The notes beneath the pieces are model-generated. The model worked only from the letters and a program-made list of their open reading frames with translations, was not told the DNA's origin and searched no databases. This document shows positions 44,471 to 49,425 of a stretch of DNA of 64,000 bases, piece by piece. Each line of letters begins with the position of its first letter. Within the stretch, counting starts at the first letter, position 1. A program made the translations under genes and the position numbers. The DNA is from Pseudomonas sp. DC1.2 (lineage in GTDB: Bacteria > Pseudomonadota > Gammaproteobacteria > Pseudomonadales > Pseudomonadaceae), in the NCBI RefSeq assembly GCF_034351645.1, contig NZ_CP133782.1:1617001-1681000 (forward strand). Direction: 5' to 3'.

Positions 44471-44613
44471 CCTTTCGTCTATCAACTAGTCTCTGATGCG
44501 CGAAGGCTCCCATGAGCGTATGATTCGCGACCCTTTGGCGATCTCTTCGCCCAAGAACCCAGCTTTCAACTCTTCAGGCCATGCCTGAACAGACCACACC
44601 GGGAGGTGCCCAG

Positions 44614-45882
44614 ATGAGTGTTAACGACCAGAAAGACGACCAGGAAATCGGCCCAGCAGGCGAAAAACTGCAGAAAGTCCTCGCCCGTATTGGCGTGGGC
44701 TCGCGCCGCGACGTAGAAGCCTGGATCAGCCACGGCCGCATCAAGGTCAACGGCAAAGACGCCACCCTTGGGCTGCGTGTCGACCTGCATGACGCCATCA
44801 CCATCGATGGCAAGGTGATCAAGCGCGAAGAAGCCGCCGAGTCGGTACGCCGCGTGATCATGTACAACAAGCCAGACGGTGAAATCTGCACCCGTGATGA
44901 CCCTGAGGGCCGTCCGACCGTGTTCGACAAGATGCCGCGTCCTAAAGAAGGTCGCTGGATTAACATCGGTCGTCTGGACATCAACACCACCGGTCTGCTG
45001 ATGTTCACCACCGACGGTGAGCTGGCTAACCGCCTGATGCACCCTTCCTACGAAATGGACCGTGAATACGCGGTCCGTGTGCGTGGTGAGGTGGACGACG
45101 AGATGATCGAGCGTCTAAAGGCAGGCGTCGTCCTTGAAGACGGGCCGGCCAAGTTCACCGACATTAAACAGGCACCCGGTGGTGAAGGTTTCAACCACTG
45201 GTATCACTGCGTAGTGATGGAAGGTCGCAACCGCGAAGTTCGTCGTCTGTGGGAATCCCAAGGGCTGGTGGTCAGCCGTTTGAAGCGCGTGCGTTTCGGC
45301 CCGGTATTCCTTAACTCCGATCTGCCGATGGGTCGCTGGCGCGAAATGAGCCAGTACGAAGTCGATATTCTGAGCGCTGAAGTCGGCCTGACTCCGGTGG
45401 CTATGCCGCAGATGAATGCCAAGAGCAAAGACAAGCTTGAGCGTATGCAGCGCAAATCGTCGCGCCCGGTGGGCAAGACCGAGCGCGTGCGTACCTTGCG
45501 TCCAGCCGCGGGTGCCCCCGCTGCCGGTCCACGTCCAGCACGTGAGCCGCAGATCGAAGGCGAGCGTCCGGCGCGCAAGCCAGCAGCCCCGCGTGCTGAT
45601 GGCGAGCGCGGTCCACGCACGCCGCGTCCGGCCAATGGCCGCACTGAACGTGGCGAAGGCCGTGGTGCGCCATCCGGTGGTCGTAGCGATCGCGGTGCTC
45701 CAGCGGGTCGCGGTACGCCAGTGGCCGATCGTCCGTCCGATTCCAAGCGTCCGTCAAAGCCTGCGCCGAAGAAACGTCCGGGTATCGTCCTGGTCGACCG
45801 TGATGCGCCATCGGGCAAACGCCGCGGTGCGCCGGCCGGTTCCGGCCAGCGTCCGGGCTTTGGTCGCCGCAAGCCTGAGTAA
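44614..45882 (+). CDS. rluB: 23S rRNA pseudouridine(2605) synthase RluB
   Basis: RluB converts U2605 of 23S rRNA to pseudouridine. The 422-residue product has an N-terminal S4 RNA-binding domain (LQKVLARIGVGSRRDVEAWI), then the RsuA/RluB catalytic domain with the GRLDINTTGLL motif carrying the active Asp, and WHSVVMEGRNREVRRLWE-type NREVRR. Residues beyond about 270 form a long Arg/Pro/Ala/Gly-rich tail that is probably disordered and RNA-binding. The ATG at 44614 is chosen since GGAGG lies 7 bp upstream; an ATG at 44581 is possible. A strong terminator follows. Confidence 0.93.
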   Translation: MSVNDQKDDQEIGPAGEKLQKVLARIGVGSRRDVEAWISHGRIKVNGKDATLGLRVDLHDAITIDGKVIKREEAAESVRRVIMYNKPDGEICTRDDPEGRPTVFDKMPRPKEGRWINIGRLDINTTGLLMFTTDGELANRLMHPSYEMDREYAVRVRGEVDDEMIERLKAGVVLEDGPAKFTDIKQAPGGEGFNHWYHCVVMEGRNREVRRLWESQGLVVSRLKRVRFGPVFLNSDLPMGRWREMSQYEVDILSAEVGLTPVAMPQMNAKSKDKLERMQRKSSRPVGKTERVRTLRPAAGAPAAGPRPAREPQIEGERPARKPAAPRADGERGPRTPRPANGRTERGEGRGAPSGGRSDRGAPAGRGTPVADRPSDSKRPSKPAPKKRPGIVLVDRDAPSGKRRGAPAGSGQRPGFGRRKPE

Positions 45883-45898
45883 TCGGTAAGCGTCGCCT

Positions 45899-45934
45899 AA
45901 AAAACGCCAACCCTCGGGTTGGCGTTTTTTTTTG
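45899..45934. terminator. Terminator between rluB and the M29-like gene
   Basis: AAAACGCCAACC-CTCG-GGTTGGCGTTTT with a long following T run (plus strand) and A run on the other side. It ends the rluB transcript and can terminate the convergent minus-strand gene. Confidence 0.92.
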
Positions 45935-45947
45935 GCTGGCTGATTGC

Positions 45948-46913
45948 CTAGAACACAAACCGGCCATCAAACACGGGCTCATCATCCAGAGCGAGGACGC
46001 CGCTGGAAAAGATCAGGTCCAGATGATGGCTGCCCTTGGCGCCGCCGCCCAGCCCCAAGTGCAATCCGCAATGGCGCTCCTCAAACCCAGCGTTGCGTGC
46101 GTACAGGCTCTTCACGCCCTCATTGGTGCCGATGCCCAACTCTTCGATGCGTCGATTGGACGGATTGGCATTCAAGTAGTTGTTGAAGTCATGCTCCAGT
46201 CCCGGCACGTCGGTGGCGATTTTGCAGACGGTCGAGTTCTCGATCCACAACTCCAGCGGCGACGCCAATACCCCGTATTTACGGGCAAAGGGAATGGTGC
46301 TGAGAAACGTCCCGATGAATTTCACCCGACCGTTAATCGCTTCGCTATGGGTCGCAATCTCACCAGGTGCTAAGTCAAAGTTGCCGACACCATTGATGTC
46401 GGTCCACTTCTTGATACTGCTCAACGGTGTTTCGAACCACGAACCATGGTCATCTTTGAAACTTAACGTAGTGGCCTTGGACATGCGCTGGATCAAGTGA
46501 CTGTTCAACCCGGCGATTCGTTGTGGGGTGACACTGAACGTGTCGTAGAAGTAATCGCCGTAATCCTTGAACAGCAGTGATTTTTTCCAGTGTTCTGCCA
46601 TCACGCCTTGCAGCGCGCGTACAAAGTCCGGGCCGTCTGGGCGTGGGTTGGGCAGGGTGGAGGAGTCGTAAAAGAAGATGTACAGATCGTTATCGACGAT
46701 TGCCTGAGCCAGTAGGGCCGTAGGCTCGAGGTCGAGGCGCATTGTGCTGAAGCTAAACCGTTGGCTGTCGCCGGCCTGTTCGGCGATGGCGCCGGTCAAT
46801 GCCTCGTAATCAGCGGTGTGGCCGAGCAAAACCTTGGCCTGGTTGATGCCGACAAGGGCAGGGTGGTGTTCGAGGTAGTAGAGGAAATGCGAAATGGCGC
46901 GATGCTTATCCAT
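45948..46913 (-). CDS. M29-aminopeptidase-like protein of a small peptide gene pair
   Basis: A 321-residue soluble protein, no signal peptide. The C-terminal half looks like M29 (AmpT/AmpS) metallopeptidases: the likely metal ligands are Glu185 (LAPGEIATHS), Glu258 (IEELGIGTN), His285 (HCGLHLGLG), His297 and Asp299 (SHHLDLIF). The N-terminal half is divergent, and the usual longer spacing before the last His/Asp is shortened, so substrate or even activity may differ. It has a very strong ribosome binding site (GGGAGGACTAC-ATG) and lies 68 bp after a 45-residue peptide gene, separated by a terminator hairpin. The family link is inferred by eye; the role is unknown, processing of the small peptide being one option. 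Confidence 0.6.
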   Translation of the reverse strand: MDKHRAISHFLYYLEHHPALVGINQAKVLLGHTADYEALTGAIAEQAGDSQRFSFSTMRLDLEPTALLAQAIVDNDLYIFFYDSSTLPNPRPDGPDFVRALQGVMAEHWKKSLLFKDYGDYFYDTFSVTPQRIAGLNSHLIQRMSKATTLSFKDDHGSWFETPLSSIKKWTDINGVGNFDLAPGEIATHSEAINGRVKFIGTFLSTIPFARKYGVLASPLELWIENSTVCKIATDVPGLEHDFNNYLNANPSNRRIEELGIGTNEGVKSLYARNAGFEERHCGLHLGLGGGAKGSHHLDLIFSSGVLALDDEPVFDGRFVF

Positions 46914-46934
46914 GTAGTCCTCCCTGACAAACCG

Positions 46935-46972
46935 AGAAAAAGGCAGGTACGGCCGGCCGGGTCGTACCTGCC
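46935..46972 (-). terminator. Terminator/attenuator between peptide gene and M29-like gene
   Basis: On the minus strand GGCAGGTACG and CGTACCTGCC form a perfect 10-bp stem around an 11-nt loop, followed directly by TTTTT. It starts 9 bp after the peptide stop codon and sits before the strong ribosome binding site of the next gene, so it should give excess peptide transcript and partial read-through to the enzyme. Confidence 0.85.
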
Positions 46973-46980
46973 AAGGTGTC

Positions 46981-47118
46981 TTACAAAGGCCACATCGCCG
47001 TGCCGAACGGAACAACCGCGTCGGCTTGCATCATTTCAACGGCGGCTTCATGGGTCGGTGCTTCAAACCATTCGTCCAGTTGCAGTTCAGTTTCCAAGTC
47101 TTTGTCCAGTGCTTGCAT
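46981..47118 (-). CDS. 45-residue peptide, candidate precursor peptide
   Basis: A small gene with a strong AGGAG eight bases before its ATG. The product starts MQALDKDLETELQLDEWFEAP (read in two parts) with an acidic helix-forming first half and ends with a hydrophobic, aromatic tail VVPFGTAMWPL. It has no cysteine and no signal peptide. This acidic-leader/hydrophobic-core layout, the following terminator and the next peptidase-like gene resemble RiPP precursor units, but no known RiPP class is matched. Alternatives are a toxin, a small regulator or a substrate of the peptidase. The reading frame was verified codon by codon. Confidence 0.6.
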   Translation of the reverse strand: MQALDKDLETELQLDEWFEAPTHEAAVEMMQADAVVPFGTAMWPL

Positions 47119-47400
47119 GGTGAATCTCCTAGATGACTTTTGAGTAAGAACAACTTGCCGGTCGATGCGCTCGGCAAGTCGCTCAAAACCTAGTTCAACG
47201 ATTTTAAAATTGCAAAATAATATTTAAATAATATTTATTTGAACTTTTTGTTCTGTTTTTGGTTGAGGTTTTTTTTAATTAAAAACAAAAACTAACTCGA
47301 TCCTTACTGTTGGAAATTTTCTACCGTCAATTTACAGTCAGAAGTAATTGCTATCTGACCTGGAAATTTTACGTTACGCCTTGTAAAGAAATAATGACGA
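47119..47400. other. AT-rich upstream region of the peptide gene
   Basis: This stretch is far richer in A/T than the rest of the window, with many TpA and A/T runs (for example TATTTAAATAATATTTATTT). It has a hairpin in the peptide leader (CTTGCCG/CGGCAAG, 47154-47178) and a 10-base direct repeat TGGAAATTTT at 47311 and 47361, exactly 50 bp apart. No gene is supported in it. It may be a promoter region silenced by MvaT-type (H-NS-like) proteins and a sign of acquired DNA. From 47401 to 47574 nothing clear is visible. Confidence 0.5.
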
Positions 47401-47574
47401 AAATGCTGCGCAAAGCCTCTGCGATGATCGTGGCGTCGGGGTTGTAAGGAAAACCTTCCGTGCCTCTGCTGGTCCACGTCTGCGCAGGGCTCTGGAGGAC
47501 TTGTTTCAGAAGTGTTTGCGGGGTGAGATGCGGCCTATGCCTGCCGTGCAGGCGCATAACAACAAGGAGGCGCA

Positions 47575-47721
47575 ATGAACGCCGTGATTGATCTGCATTC
47601 CTCTCGGTGGGGCGACTTTATCGCCATCACTGTCGATGACCCGCAACGGTCTGACTCCATTTTTGCAGCCGCCCGAGCCTCTCGGGGTGGACACAAGCAA
47701 TCCCGGCAACCAACACGCTGA
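47575..47721 (+). CDS. Possible small protein, 48 aa
   Basis: An open frame with a strong AAGGAGG five bases before the ATG. It starts MNAVIDLHSSRWGDFIAITVDD, a plausible coding segment, and then changes to a basic, Arg/Ser/Gly-rich end that looks less protein-like. It could be a real small gene, a remnant with a frameshifted 3' part, or a leader ORF upstream of aroP. I do not recognise it. Confidence 0.3.
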   Translation: MNAVIDLHSSRWGDFIAITVDDPQRSDSIFAAARASRGGHKQSRQPTR

Positions 47722-47732
47722 CCTGGCGGTGT

Positions 47733-47761
47733 CTGGCAGCAGGGGATTAGCGGTGTACAAT
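47733..47761 (+). promoter_or_regulatory. Likely promoter of the aroP leader transcript
   Basis: CTGGCA (47733-47738) and TACAAT (47756-47761) are spaced by 17 bp. Transcription from here would give a leader of about 235 nt before aroP, holding the small Trp-containing ORF. Confidence 0.45.
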
Positions 47762-47880
47762 GCGCCGCGTTTTAACGGTGACCTCCTGCGCAAGATCAAG
47801 GCTATCCGTCTTGTTCACTCCGCCGCGCCATAAGCGCGTCGGGTTCGATTTCGTCACAGATAAAAACAAACAGGTGACGC

Positions 47881-47943
47881 ATGACCGTTGTAAATACGCT
47901 GAACTCCTGGTGCTTGCGCTGGGGTTTGATCGGCGCTGCTTGA
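47881..47943 (+). CDS. Trp-containing leader peptide upstream of aroP (20 aa)
   Basis: A 20-codon ORF, MTVVNTLNSWCLRWGLIGAA, with AGGTGA before its ATG and a TGA stop 60 bp before aroP. It contains two Trp codons (positions 10 and 14), high for so short a peptide. Its last codons pair with the sequence just behind it: GCTGCTTG with CAAGCAGC (perfect 8 bp) or, alternatively, GCTGC with GCAGC. No U-run follows, so any control would be by Rho access or start-site masking, as known for TnaC. The upstream AAAAACAA could be an Hfq/Crc (AAnAAnAA) site. Function is inferred from context. Confidence 0.5.
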   Translation: MTVVNTLNSWCLRWGLIGAA

Positions 47944-48003
47944 AATTGCAGCCAAGCAGCAACGTCTACTGAATATCATCAAACCTTGCGTGAGACCCTT
48001 TTC

Positions 48004-49425
48004 ATGAGTGGACAAAACTCGCATTCAGGCGAGCTGAAACGCGGCCTGAAAAATCGCCACATTCAACTGATCGCCTTGGGCGGCGCAATCGGAACCGGGT
48101 TGTTTCTCGGCTCGGCCGGGGTATTAAAATCTGCCGGTCCTTCGATGATTCTCGGCTACGCCATCTGCGGCGTTATCGCCTTCATGATCATGCGTCAGCT
48201 CGGTGAAATGATCGTTGAAGAGCCGGTGGCCGGTTCTTTCAGTCACTTTGCGCACAAATATTGGGGCGGTTTCGCTGGCTTCCTGTCAGGTTGGAACTGC
48301 TGGATTTTGTACATTCTGGTGGGCATGTCCGAGCTGACCGCTGTCGGTAAATACATCCACTACTGGGCGCCGGATATCCCGACCTGGGTGTCTGCCGCCG
48401 GATTCTTCGTACTGATCAACCTGATCAACCTGGCCAACGTCAAAGTTTTCGGTGAAGCGGAGTTCTGGTTCGCGATCATCAAGGTCGTGGCCATCGTCGG
48501 GATGATTGCTTTGGGCAGTTACCTGCTGGTCAGCGGTAACGGCGGGCCGCAGGCTTCGGTGAGCAACCTGTGGGCTCACGGCGGCTTCTTTCCCAATGGC
48601 GTCAGCGGTTTGGTGATGGCCATGGCGATCATCATGTTTTCCTTTGGTGGCCTGGAAATGCTCGGTTTCACCGCAGCAGAAGCCGATCAACCGAAAACCG
48701 TGATCCCGAAAGCGATTAACCAGGTGATTTACCGGATTTTGATTTTCTATATCGGTGCCTTGGTGGTTCTGCTGTCACTTACCCCGTGGGACAGCCTGCT
48801 GGTGAGCCTGAACGCGTCTGGCGATGCGTATAGCGGCAGTCCTTTCGTTCAGGTGTTCTCGATGCTGGGTAGCAGCACGGCAGCGCATATTCTCAACTTT
48901 GTGGTCCTGACGGCAGCGCTGTCGGTGTACAACAGCGGCACTTACTGCAACAGCCGGATGTTGCTGGGAATGGCCGAGCAGGGCGATGCGCCGAAAGCGT
49001 TGTCGAAGATCGACAAGCGTGGCGTGCCGGTGCGCGCCATCCTTGCTTCGGCCGCGGTGACGCTGATCGCCGTGGTGCTGAACTACCTGATTCCGCAACA
49101 CGCGCTCGAATTGTTGATGTCGCTGGTGGTCGCCACCCTGGTAATCAACTGGGCGATGATCAGTTACTCGCACTTCAAGTTTCGTCAGCACATGAACAAG
49201 ACTCACCAGACGCCGCTGTTCAAGGCCCTTTGGTACCCGTATGGGAACTACATCTGTCTGGCGTTCGTGGTGTTCATTCTGTGCGTGATGTTGCTGATTC
49301 CGGGGATCAAGATCTCGGTGTATGCGATTCCGGTATGGCTCGCATTCATGTGGGTCTGCTACGGGATCAAGAACAAGCGCCGTGAGCGTCATGCTCTGCA
49401 GGTTGCGGGTTCCGTGGCCAAGTAA
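48004..49425 (+). CDS. aroP: Aromatic amino acid permease AroP
   Basis: A 473-residue amino acid-polyamine-organocation transporter with 12 membrane helices, very similar to E. coli Aro[32 protein letters not shown] in parts, [50 protein letters not shown] and [14 protein letters not shown]. It imports Phe, Tyr and Trp with protons. The ATG at 48004 gives the family start; a TTG 6 codons earlier is rejected. Its leader contains the small Trp ORF, and the Phe catabolic phh operon lies 2.5 kb away. A terminator follows. Confidence 0.88.

Follow-up and report, generated by a model that had tools for sequence, protein, structure and literature searches.

The region examined here, referred to as the window, is a 64,000-nucleotide stretch of Pseudomonas sp. 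DC1.2 (contig NZ_CP133782.1, positions 1,617,001 to 1,681,000) that sits in a 5.82-Mb single-contig genome. Its minus strand carries a gene for a 45-residue peptide, MQALDKDLETELQLDEWFEAPTHEAAVEMMQADAVVPFGTAMWPL (coded at 47118-46984), and, beginning 67 bp downstream, a gene for a 321 amino acid (aa) protein of the CgnB/M29 fold. This protein, here called the enzyme, starts at the ATG at 46913-46911 (MDKHRAI...), from which its residues are counted, and its stop codon is at 45948-45950. The pair is flanked by rluB (44581-45882, plus strand) and by a gene for an aromatic-amino-acid-type permease (47986-49425, plus strand); the features of the locus are collected in Table 1. An original prediction, made from the letters of the sequence alone, had described both genes, and its coordinates and descriptions agree with the sequence and the open reading frames (ORFs). 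The acidic N-terminal half of the peptide, its hydrophobic aromatic end and its lack of Cys and of a Gly-Gly site are all seen in the sequence, and each gene has the ribosome-binding site that had been ascribed to it.

The peptide and the enzyme form a conserved two-gene unit. That they belong to a joint module had been proposed from the window, and the proposal is strongly supported by the presence of a conserved peptide beside enzyme orthologues in several genera. A scan of genome contigs returned 151 enzyme relatives, of which the best 80, all from Pseudomonas, were kept; the peptide gene is located directly upstream of the enzyme gene at each of these 80 loci, and rluB and the permease gene flank the module in 73 of them. 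One flank was not found at the other seven, six of which are short contig pieces and one of which (L070) is a full-length locus without rluB. Among 398 Pseudomonas genomes, the enzyme profile matched 143 and the peptide profile 142, with both genes present in 141, neither in 254, and three exceptions that are decayed copies. The two enzyme-only genomes hold remnants, namely a 29-residue C-terminal piece (G970, locus L151) and a fragment of ~122 residues with stops (G1179, L150). In the single peptide-only genome (G1305, L160) most of the enzyme is deleted and the peptide core is off consensus (TVMPFGTAMW). A further genome, G1146 (L152), was counted as having both genes, but its enzyme match is split into two overlapping pieces, the pattern expected of a frameshift. 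All four decayed copies lie at the rluB-side site, and the G1305 peptide is drifting after the enzyme deletion.

The pairing extends to other groups, represented by genome samples in which the names Burkholderia, Xenorhabdus-like and Piscirickettsia were assigned by match to named proteins (the peptides of the Xenorhabdus-like genus are identical to named Xenorhabdus proteins). In a Burkholderia-like sample of 101 genomes, centred on one genome, 48 carry the enzyme, and 47 of these, but no other genome, also carry the peptide; the 48th (G777) has only an 83-residue enzyme match and a fragmented assembly. In the Xenorhabdus-like genus, a search of 119 genomes gave 8 with the enzyme and a search of 99 gave 7 with the peptide; in the eighth (G645) the enzyme gene is cut by a contig end. 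Pairing was also found in Piscirickettsia. Protein searches gave 29 matches with the peptide and 160 with the enzyme (120 of them listed), and a peptide profile search gave 59 proteins, including ones from Paraburkholderia, Chromobacterium, Vibrio and Photorhabdus; at least 14 of these 59 appear to share contigs with enzyme matches, to judge by equal lengths of the longest contig (402840, 1317907, 2986579 and 217697 among them). In even samples the enzyme profile matched 4 genomes among 369 from the class and 9 among 398 from the phylum, and the enzyme is therefore rare outside a few genera. Four of these matches (G027, G081, G450 and G745) are distant or broken family members, near which a pattern search did not find such a peptide. 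A second, diverged enzyme is present in three Burkholderia-like genomes (L146, L147 and L148), accompanied by a diverged peptide (...SAVIPFATALWA) whose start lies ~250 bp ahead of that of the enzyme. The core of this second peptide is AVIPFATALWA, with A in place of G39, and the pair provides a natural variant with which specificity can be approached.

The order of the two genes is not fixed. In the Xenorhabdus-like loci, the peptide gene is upstream of the enzyme gene in L139, L141 and L145 and downstream on the same strand in L140, L142, L143 and L144. This bears on the idea that the peptide is an upstream ORF translated only for control of the enzyme gene, as in attenuation, an arrangement suggested by the position of the peptide just upstream, with a hairpin between the genes, in the Pseudomonas and Burkholderia loci examined. 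A simple upstream ORF is ruled out by the downstream order in four of the seven Xenorhabdus-like loci, because linkage is kept while order changes, and conservation of the amino acid sequence spans genera; this explanation has virtually no chance of being correct.

The paired peptides are 38-45 residues long. In an alignment of 35 peptides, made up of the window's peptide and 34 of the 59 profile-search matches, with the second Burkholderia paralogue left out, eight positions are invariant (W17, T22, A26, V36, P37, G39, T40 and W43), and V27, M30, A34, V35 and A41 are conserved in at least 90%. The residues after W43 differ in kind and number, being PL, PF, PM, PV, PI, PS, P alone, L alone, AL, AV or SV. 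Purifying selection on the peptide frame, which the original prediction had made a touchstone of the joint module, is evident from a ratio of nonsynonymous to synonymous substitution rates (dN/dS) of 0.082, pooled over 2781 same-length pairs of 79 distinct peptide DNAs and not independent of phylogeny. In the last 14 codons of the same pooled pairs the ratio falls to 0.036, and the enzyme gene gave 0.092 over 1842 pooled pairs, for which 9 of 81 enzymes were left out and unequal-length pairs and codons with N were skipped. Co-occurrence and purifying selection together rule out chance neighbours. An AlphaFold2 model of the peptide places short helices at residues 14-19 and 24-33, followed by an unstructured tail, at moderate to low confidence (mean predicted local distance difference test score, pLDDT, 69.1; predicted template modelling score, pTM, 0.28). 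From conservation, the peptide may be divided into a leader of ~33 residues and a core, AVVPFGTA[M/L]W. Several of the peptides carry the UniRef name "Mercuric reductase", for which these data give no support.

Table 1. Features of the peptide and enzyme locus, with positions in the window
Feature	Position	Strand	Basis or remark
45-residue peptide gene (putative precursor)	46981..47118	minus	stop at 46981-46983; homologues; purifying selection
Putative leader, residues 1-33	47020..47118	minus	acidic; two predicted short helices (14-19, 24-33); leader/core split suggested by conservation
Putative core, residues 34-43, AVVPFGTAMW	46990..47019	minus	alignment of 35 peptides
Variable tail after Trp, residues 44-45	46984..46989	minus	relatives have one or two residues here
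Hairpin between the two genes	46942..46972	minus	arms 46963-46972 and 46942-46951, then TTTTT on the minus strand
CgnB-like M29-fold protein, 321 aa	45948..46913	minus	six putative metal ligands
Ribosome-binding site of the enzyme gene, GGGAGGAC	46917..46924	minus	sequence
Ribosome-binding site of the peptide gene, AGGAG	47126..47130	minus	sequence; kept in upstream alignment
Putative promoter, TTGCAA, 17 nt, TAGGTT	47187..47215	minus	below an A+T-rich stretch; similar pair visible by eye when 18 Pseudomonas upstream regions are aligned
Hairpin with flanking A and T runs	45902..45927		rluB and enzyme gene convergent; read as shared terminator

The intergenic hairpin, which follows the peptide stop codon, shows covariation in Pseudomonas. 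In 15 Pseudomonas sequences, 90.2% of the cells pair, two-sided changes occur in 8 of 13 pairs, and the covariation score of 0.399 was matched by none of 500 shuffles. Hairpins of unrelated sequence occupy the same place in Burkholderia, in Piscirickettsia and in four of five tested Xenorhabdus-like loci, including loci in which the peptide gene is downstream. Against shuffles of the same region, z was -2 or below in 7 of 12 sequences (lowest -5.57); L081, L097, L139 and the window lay between -1.5 and -1.8 (window -1.80), and L062 (-0.19) and L145 (-0.77) were not distinguishable from chance. The hairpin resembles a partial terminator or a stabilising structure, which would raise the amount of peptide over that of enzyme. 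Upstream of the peptide gene, the promoter-like TTGCAA-17-TAGGTT pair is conserved by eye and was not listed by a pattern scan; the hairpin between rluB and the enzyme gene was not listed by a terminator scan, the pattern of which needs a loop of 3-8. No known RNA was found by Rfam in 45000-49000.

These features allow a reading in which the peptide is a stable small partner of the enzyme, that is, a permanent subunit, an activator or a pseudosubstrate inhibitor, its C-terminal tail lying in the active-site cleft. The near-invariance of the peptide is what a binding surface would show, and the peptide is nearly always paired with the enzyme; the flanks compared share no other maturation gene. 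A hairpin after the peptide gene, however, suggests unequal expression and not a 1:1 complex, the model predicts no folded domain (pTM as above), and no such subunit was found in the available text of PMC10070186 on CgnB and CgnE. A stable partner is on balance unlikely.

The enzyme has the CgnB/M29 fold with its ligand set intact. Six putative metal ligands (E185, E258, E279, H285, H297 and D299) are invariant in 12 sequences; five of the positions align with CgnB, and the sixth is placed by motif only. Pfam and NCBIfam scans of the enzyme gave no match up to an expectation value (E) of 10, and PF02073 (Peptidase family M29) matched neither the enzyme nor any other protein in this genome. Single proteins and the profiles A1 and A5 gave no convincing sequence link to M29 or CgnB (CgnB at E 1.5), and the best match in the PDB of a profile that included distant homologues (A7) was CgnB, weakly, at E 0.076. 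The earlier description of the protein as M29-like thus holds at the level of the fold and fails at the level of sequence, where neither PF02073 nor another family signature was found. A PF26231 (CgnB/CgnE family) label is precomputed for many relatives, but not for the closest cluster, P0030; Pfam scans gave no PF26231 even for relatives so labelled, and the scanned copy of Pfam may lack this family. The database name of the enzyme, "leucyl aminopeptidase", is without support in these data.

Remote homologues, 376-397 aa long and 21-22% identical to the enzyme, were seen at L154:2353-3534(-), L155:2501-3628(+) and L098:7969-9159(+); those at L154 and L155 come from Pseudomonas genomes in which the main module is present as well. 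All three keep the six ligands and end in a tail that bears a Cys-Cys motif (SCCGTN, DCCG, DDCCGLLR), and a 58-residue ORF is found just upstream of the L098 homologue. They may constitute a separate peptide-linked branch.

Whether the enzyme acts as an ordinary peptidase, trimming the peptide to a short linear signal in the manner of an unmodified peptide hormone, can be judged from several of these observations. The M29 fold and the retention of all six metal-ligand positions fit such a role, and the conserved C-terminal stretch is of the size seen in short signals. The core nevertheless does not diversify as many pheromones do; the constraint is C-terminal, and an N-terminal exopeptidase would meet the variable end; and the flanks compared share no exporter or receptor. 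The original prediction had the enzyme as a metallopeptidase processing the peptide, which these results do not establish: its nearest sequence match of known structure is the weak one to CgnB, and CgnB and CgnE, the peptide-binding M29-fold proteins of crocagin biosynthesis (PDB 6zsv and 6zsu), had no observed aminopeptidase activity according to the available text of PMC10070186. The hormone explanation, against which this also tells, is if anything less likely than a stable partner. The enzyme could instead be a mononuclear Fe(II) dioxygenase of the NicX type that oxidises the core Trp or another core residue, given the match in fold. Its complete two-metal ligand set, however, maps onto the zinc ligands of CgnB, whereas NicX, a 2,5-dihydroxypyridine dioxygenase, holds one Fe(II) by His265, Ser302, His318 and Asp320 (PMC7910607, available text), the two being compared at fold level. 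An oxygenase is highly improbable.

Neighbouring genes were compared all against all as ORFs of at least 70 aa from 14 loci (four Pseudomonas, two Burkholderia, one Piscirickettsia and seven Xenorhabdus-like). The enzyme, with its overlapping frames, was the sole gene common to all four groups. A permease, considered as a third component, is common to the Pseudomonas loci and six of the seven Xenorhabdus-like loci at 37-40% identity, but the family matches differ: the nearest NCBIfam model of the window's permease is AroP, below the cut-off of that model, and two tested Xenorhabdus-like permeases match NCBIfam D-serine/D-alanine/glycine transporters. Because of this difference, the sharing is probably a coincidence. 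The three Burkholderia loci compared (L095:9974-10687(-), L097:8365-8991(+) and L149:4399-4911(+)) have a gene for a GCN5-related N-acetyltransferase (GNAT) next to the module, and six of the seven Xenorhabdus-like loci (L139-L144) have one near it, the latter proteins having 27-34% identity to the Burkholderia GNAT over 88-108 residues; none was seen in the Pseudomonas or Piscirickettsia loci compared. Against NF007527, two tested Xenorhabdus-like proteins scored 145-154 bits and two from Burkholderia 21-33 bits; no NCBIfam equivalog passed, and the nearest models differ between groups. Since family matches differ in this way, the GNAT, like the permease, is a weak lead and not a part of the module.

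A mobile or viral setting was considered and rejected. A scan of viral contigs gave four loci (L162-L165). The first, on an IMG/VR "viral" contig, has a Pseudomonas permease, the peptide and the start of the enzyme gene at 53% identity, and is probably a chromosomal Pseudomonas fragment with a divergent enzyme that was misfiled as viral; the other three are chance matches that lack the peptide's Trp and overlap a 162-aa ORF on the opposite strand. In two plasmid searches the enzyme turned up on three large Burkholderia replicons and nowhere else.

The explanation we favor, with a probability of roughly 60%, is that the locus encodes a minimal unit of the type that makes ribosomally synthesised and post-translationally modified peptides (RiPPs), consisting of a dedicated precursor peptide and a CgnB-like maturase. 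Three observations lead us to infer that the enzyme acts on the 38-45-residue peptide as its precursor substrate: the closest relatives of the enzyme that are understood are binders of precursor peptides; the constrained part is a flexible C-terminal stretch which, like that of CgnA, the crocagin precursor, has a Trp close to its end; and the hairpin favors excess peptide. The acidic, helical N-terminal part would serve as the recognition segment, and AVVPFGTA[M/L]W as the core that is acted on, followed by a dispensable tail of one or two residues. The CgnB-like protein would bind the peptide, and its two-metal centre would act on the C-terminal core, possibly by cleaving or cyclising it close to the Trp or the Gly-Thr. 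The intergenic hairpin would allow more peptide than enzyme to be produced. Because of the strong sequence constraint, a product with a conserved role (signal, cofactor or metal ligand) is likelier than a diversifying bacteriocin. Three points weigh against this explanation: no further gene is common to all loci compared, CgnB is known to work together with partners, and the enzyme strongly resembles NicX. A bolder version, which we put forward tentatively, is that this could be the smallest RiPP-type system of its fold, with one CgnB-like two-metal protein as its sole dedicated maturase, a core nearly frozen across beta- and gammaproteobacteria, a small peptide product with a housekeeping-like role and a diverged second version in some Burkholderia (AVIPFATALW).

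With this peptide, the single-copy CgnB/E branch gains a clear and testable substrate candidate. If two small genes suffice, the action of a CgnB-type two-metal centre on a peptide becomes an accessible question, and the near-frozen core in several proteobacterial groups points to a shared product. Two routine database labels are also corrected, leucyl aminopeptidase for the enzyme and mercuric reductase for several of the peptides.

Among known systems, the closest is that of crocagin, as described in the available text of PMC10070186 (2023), which reports CgnB/E homologues in ~100 genomes from five groups, beta- and gammaproteobacteria among them, and the mining of putative precursor peptides beside single-copy homologues. 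CgnB and CgnE share the fold with the enzyme, at 10-11% identity in structural alignment, and five metal ligands match CgnB, with the sixth by motif. A crocagin-type cluster has two CgnB/E copies within about 2 kb with CgnC close by, whereas here there is one enzyme gene per locus: the second enzyme copies of G762 and G787 are on a different contig or at a distance from the first copy, and the flanks of the 14 loci compared share no second enzyme. No CgnC-like partner was noticed among the neighbours common to the 14 loci, though no sequence search was aimed at CgnC. As far as that text describes CgnA, its C-terminal stretch also has a near-terminal Trp, but its leader is rich in positive charge where the leader here is acidic, and its core ends I-Y-W where here A/S-[M/L]-W is followed by one or two final residues; the peptide alignment shows no crocagin-type Tyr-Trp at the C-terminal end of the core. 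A peptide beside a CgnB-like gene is accordingly not new as an idea, and the statement in the original prediction that no described class has these parts must be narrowed: CgnB and CgnE are described and precursors beside single copies had been mined, per the available text of PMC10070186, while the two-gene form was not found described. As far as the searches show, this applies to the stand-alone form with its near-frozen core, changes of order and paralogous pairs; the strings VVPFGTA, VPFGTAMW and VPFGTALW were not found in the literature searched, and this peptide may already be listed in the supplement of PMC10070186.

Members of Peptidase family M29 (AmpT 2ayi, AmpS 1zjc, PepS 4icr) have chains of 397-413 aa, compared with 321 aa for the enzyme, which differs from them also in its lack of a PF02073 match and its pairing with a dedicated peptide. 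NicX (7cup, 7cn3) matches in fold, and the enzyme, unlike it, keeps the six-ligand, two-metal set. The precursors of pyrroloquinoline quinone (PqqA) and mycofactocin (MftA), which belong to cofactor-type RiPPs, resemble the peptide in being short and in having a core that hardly varies between species; those pathways employ several dedicated enzymes, including radical S-adenosylmethionine proteins, in contrast to the one linked enzyme found here.
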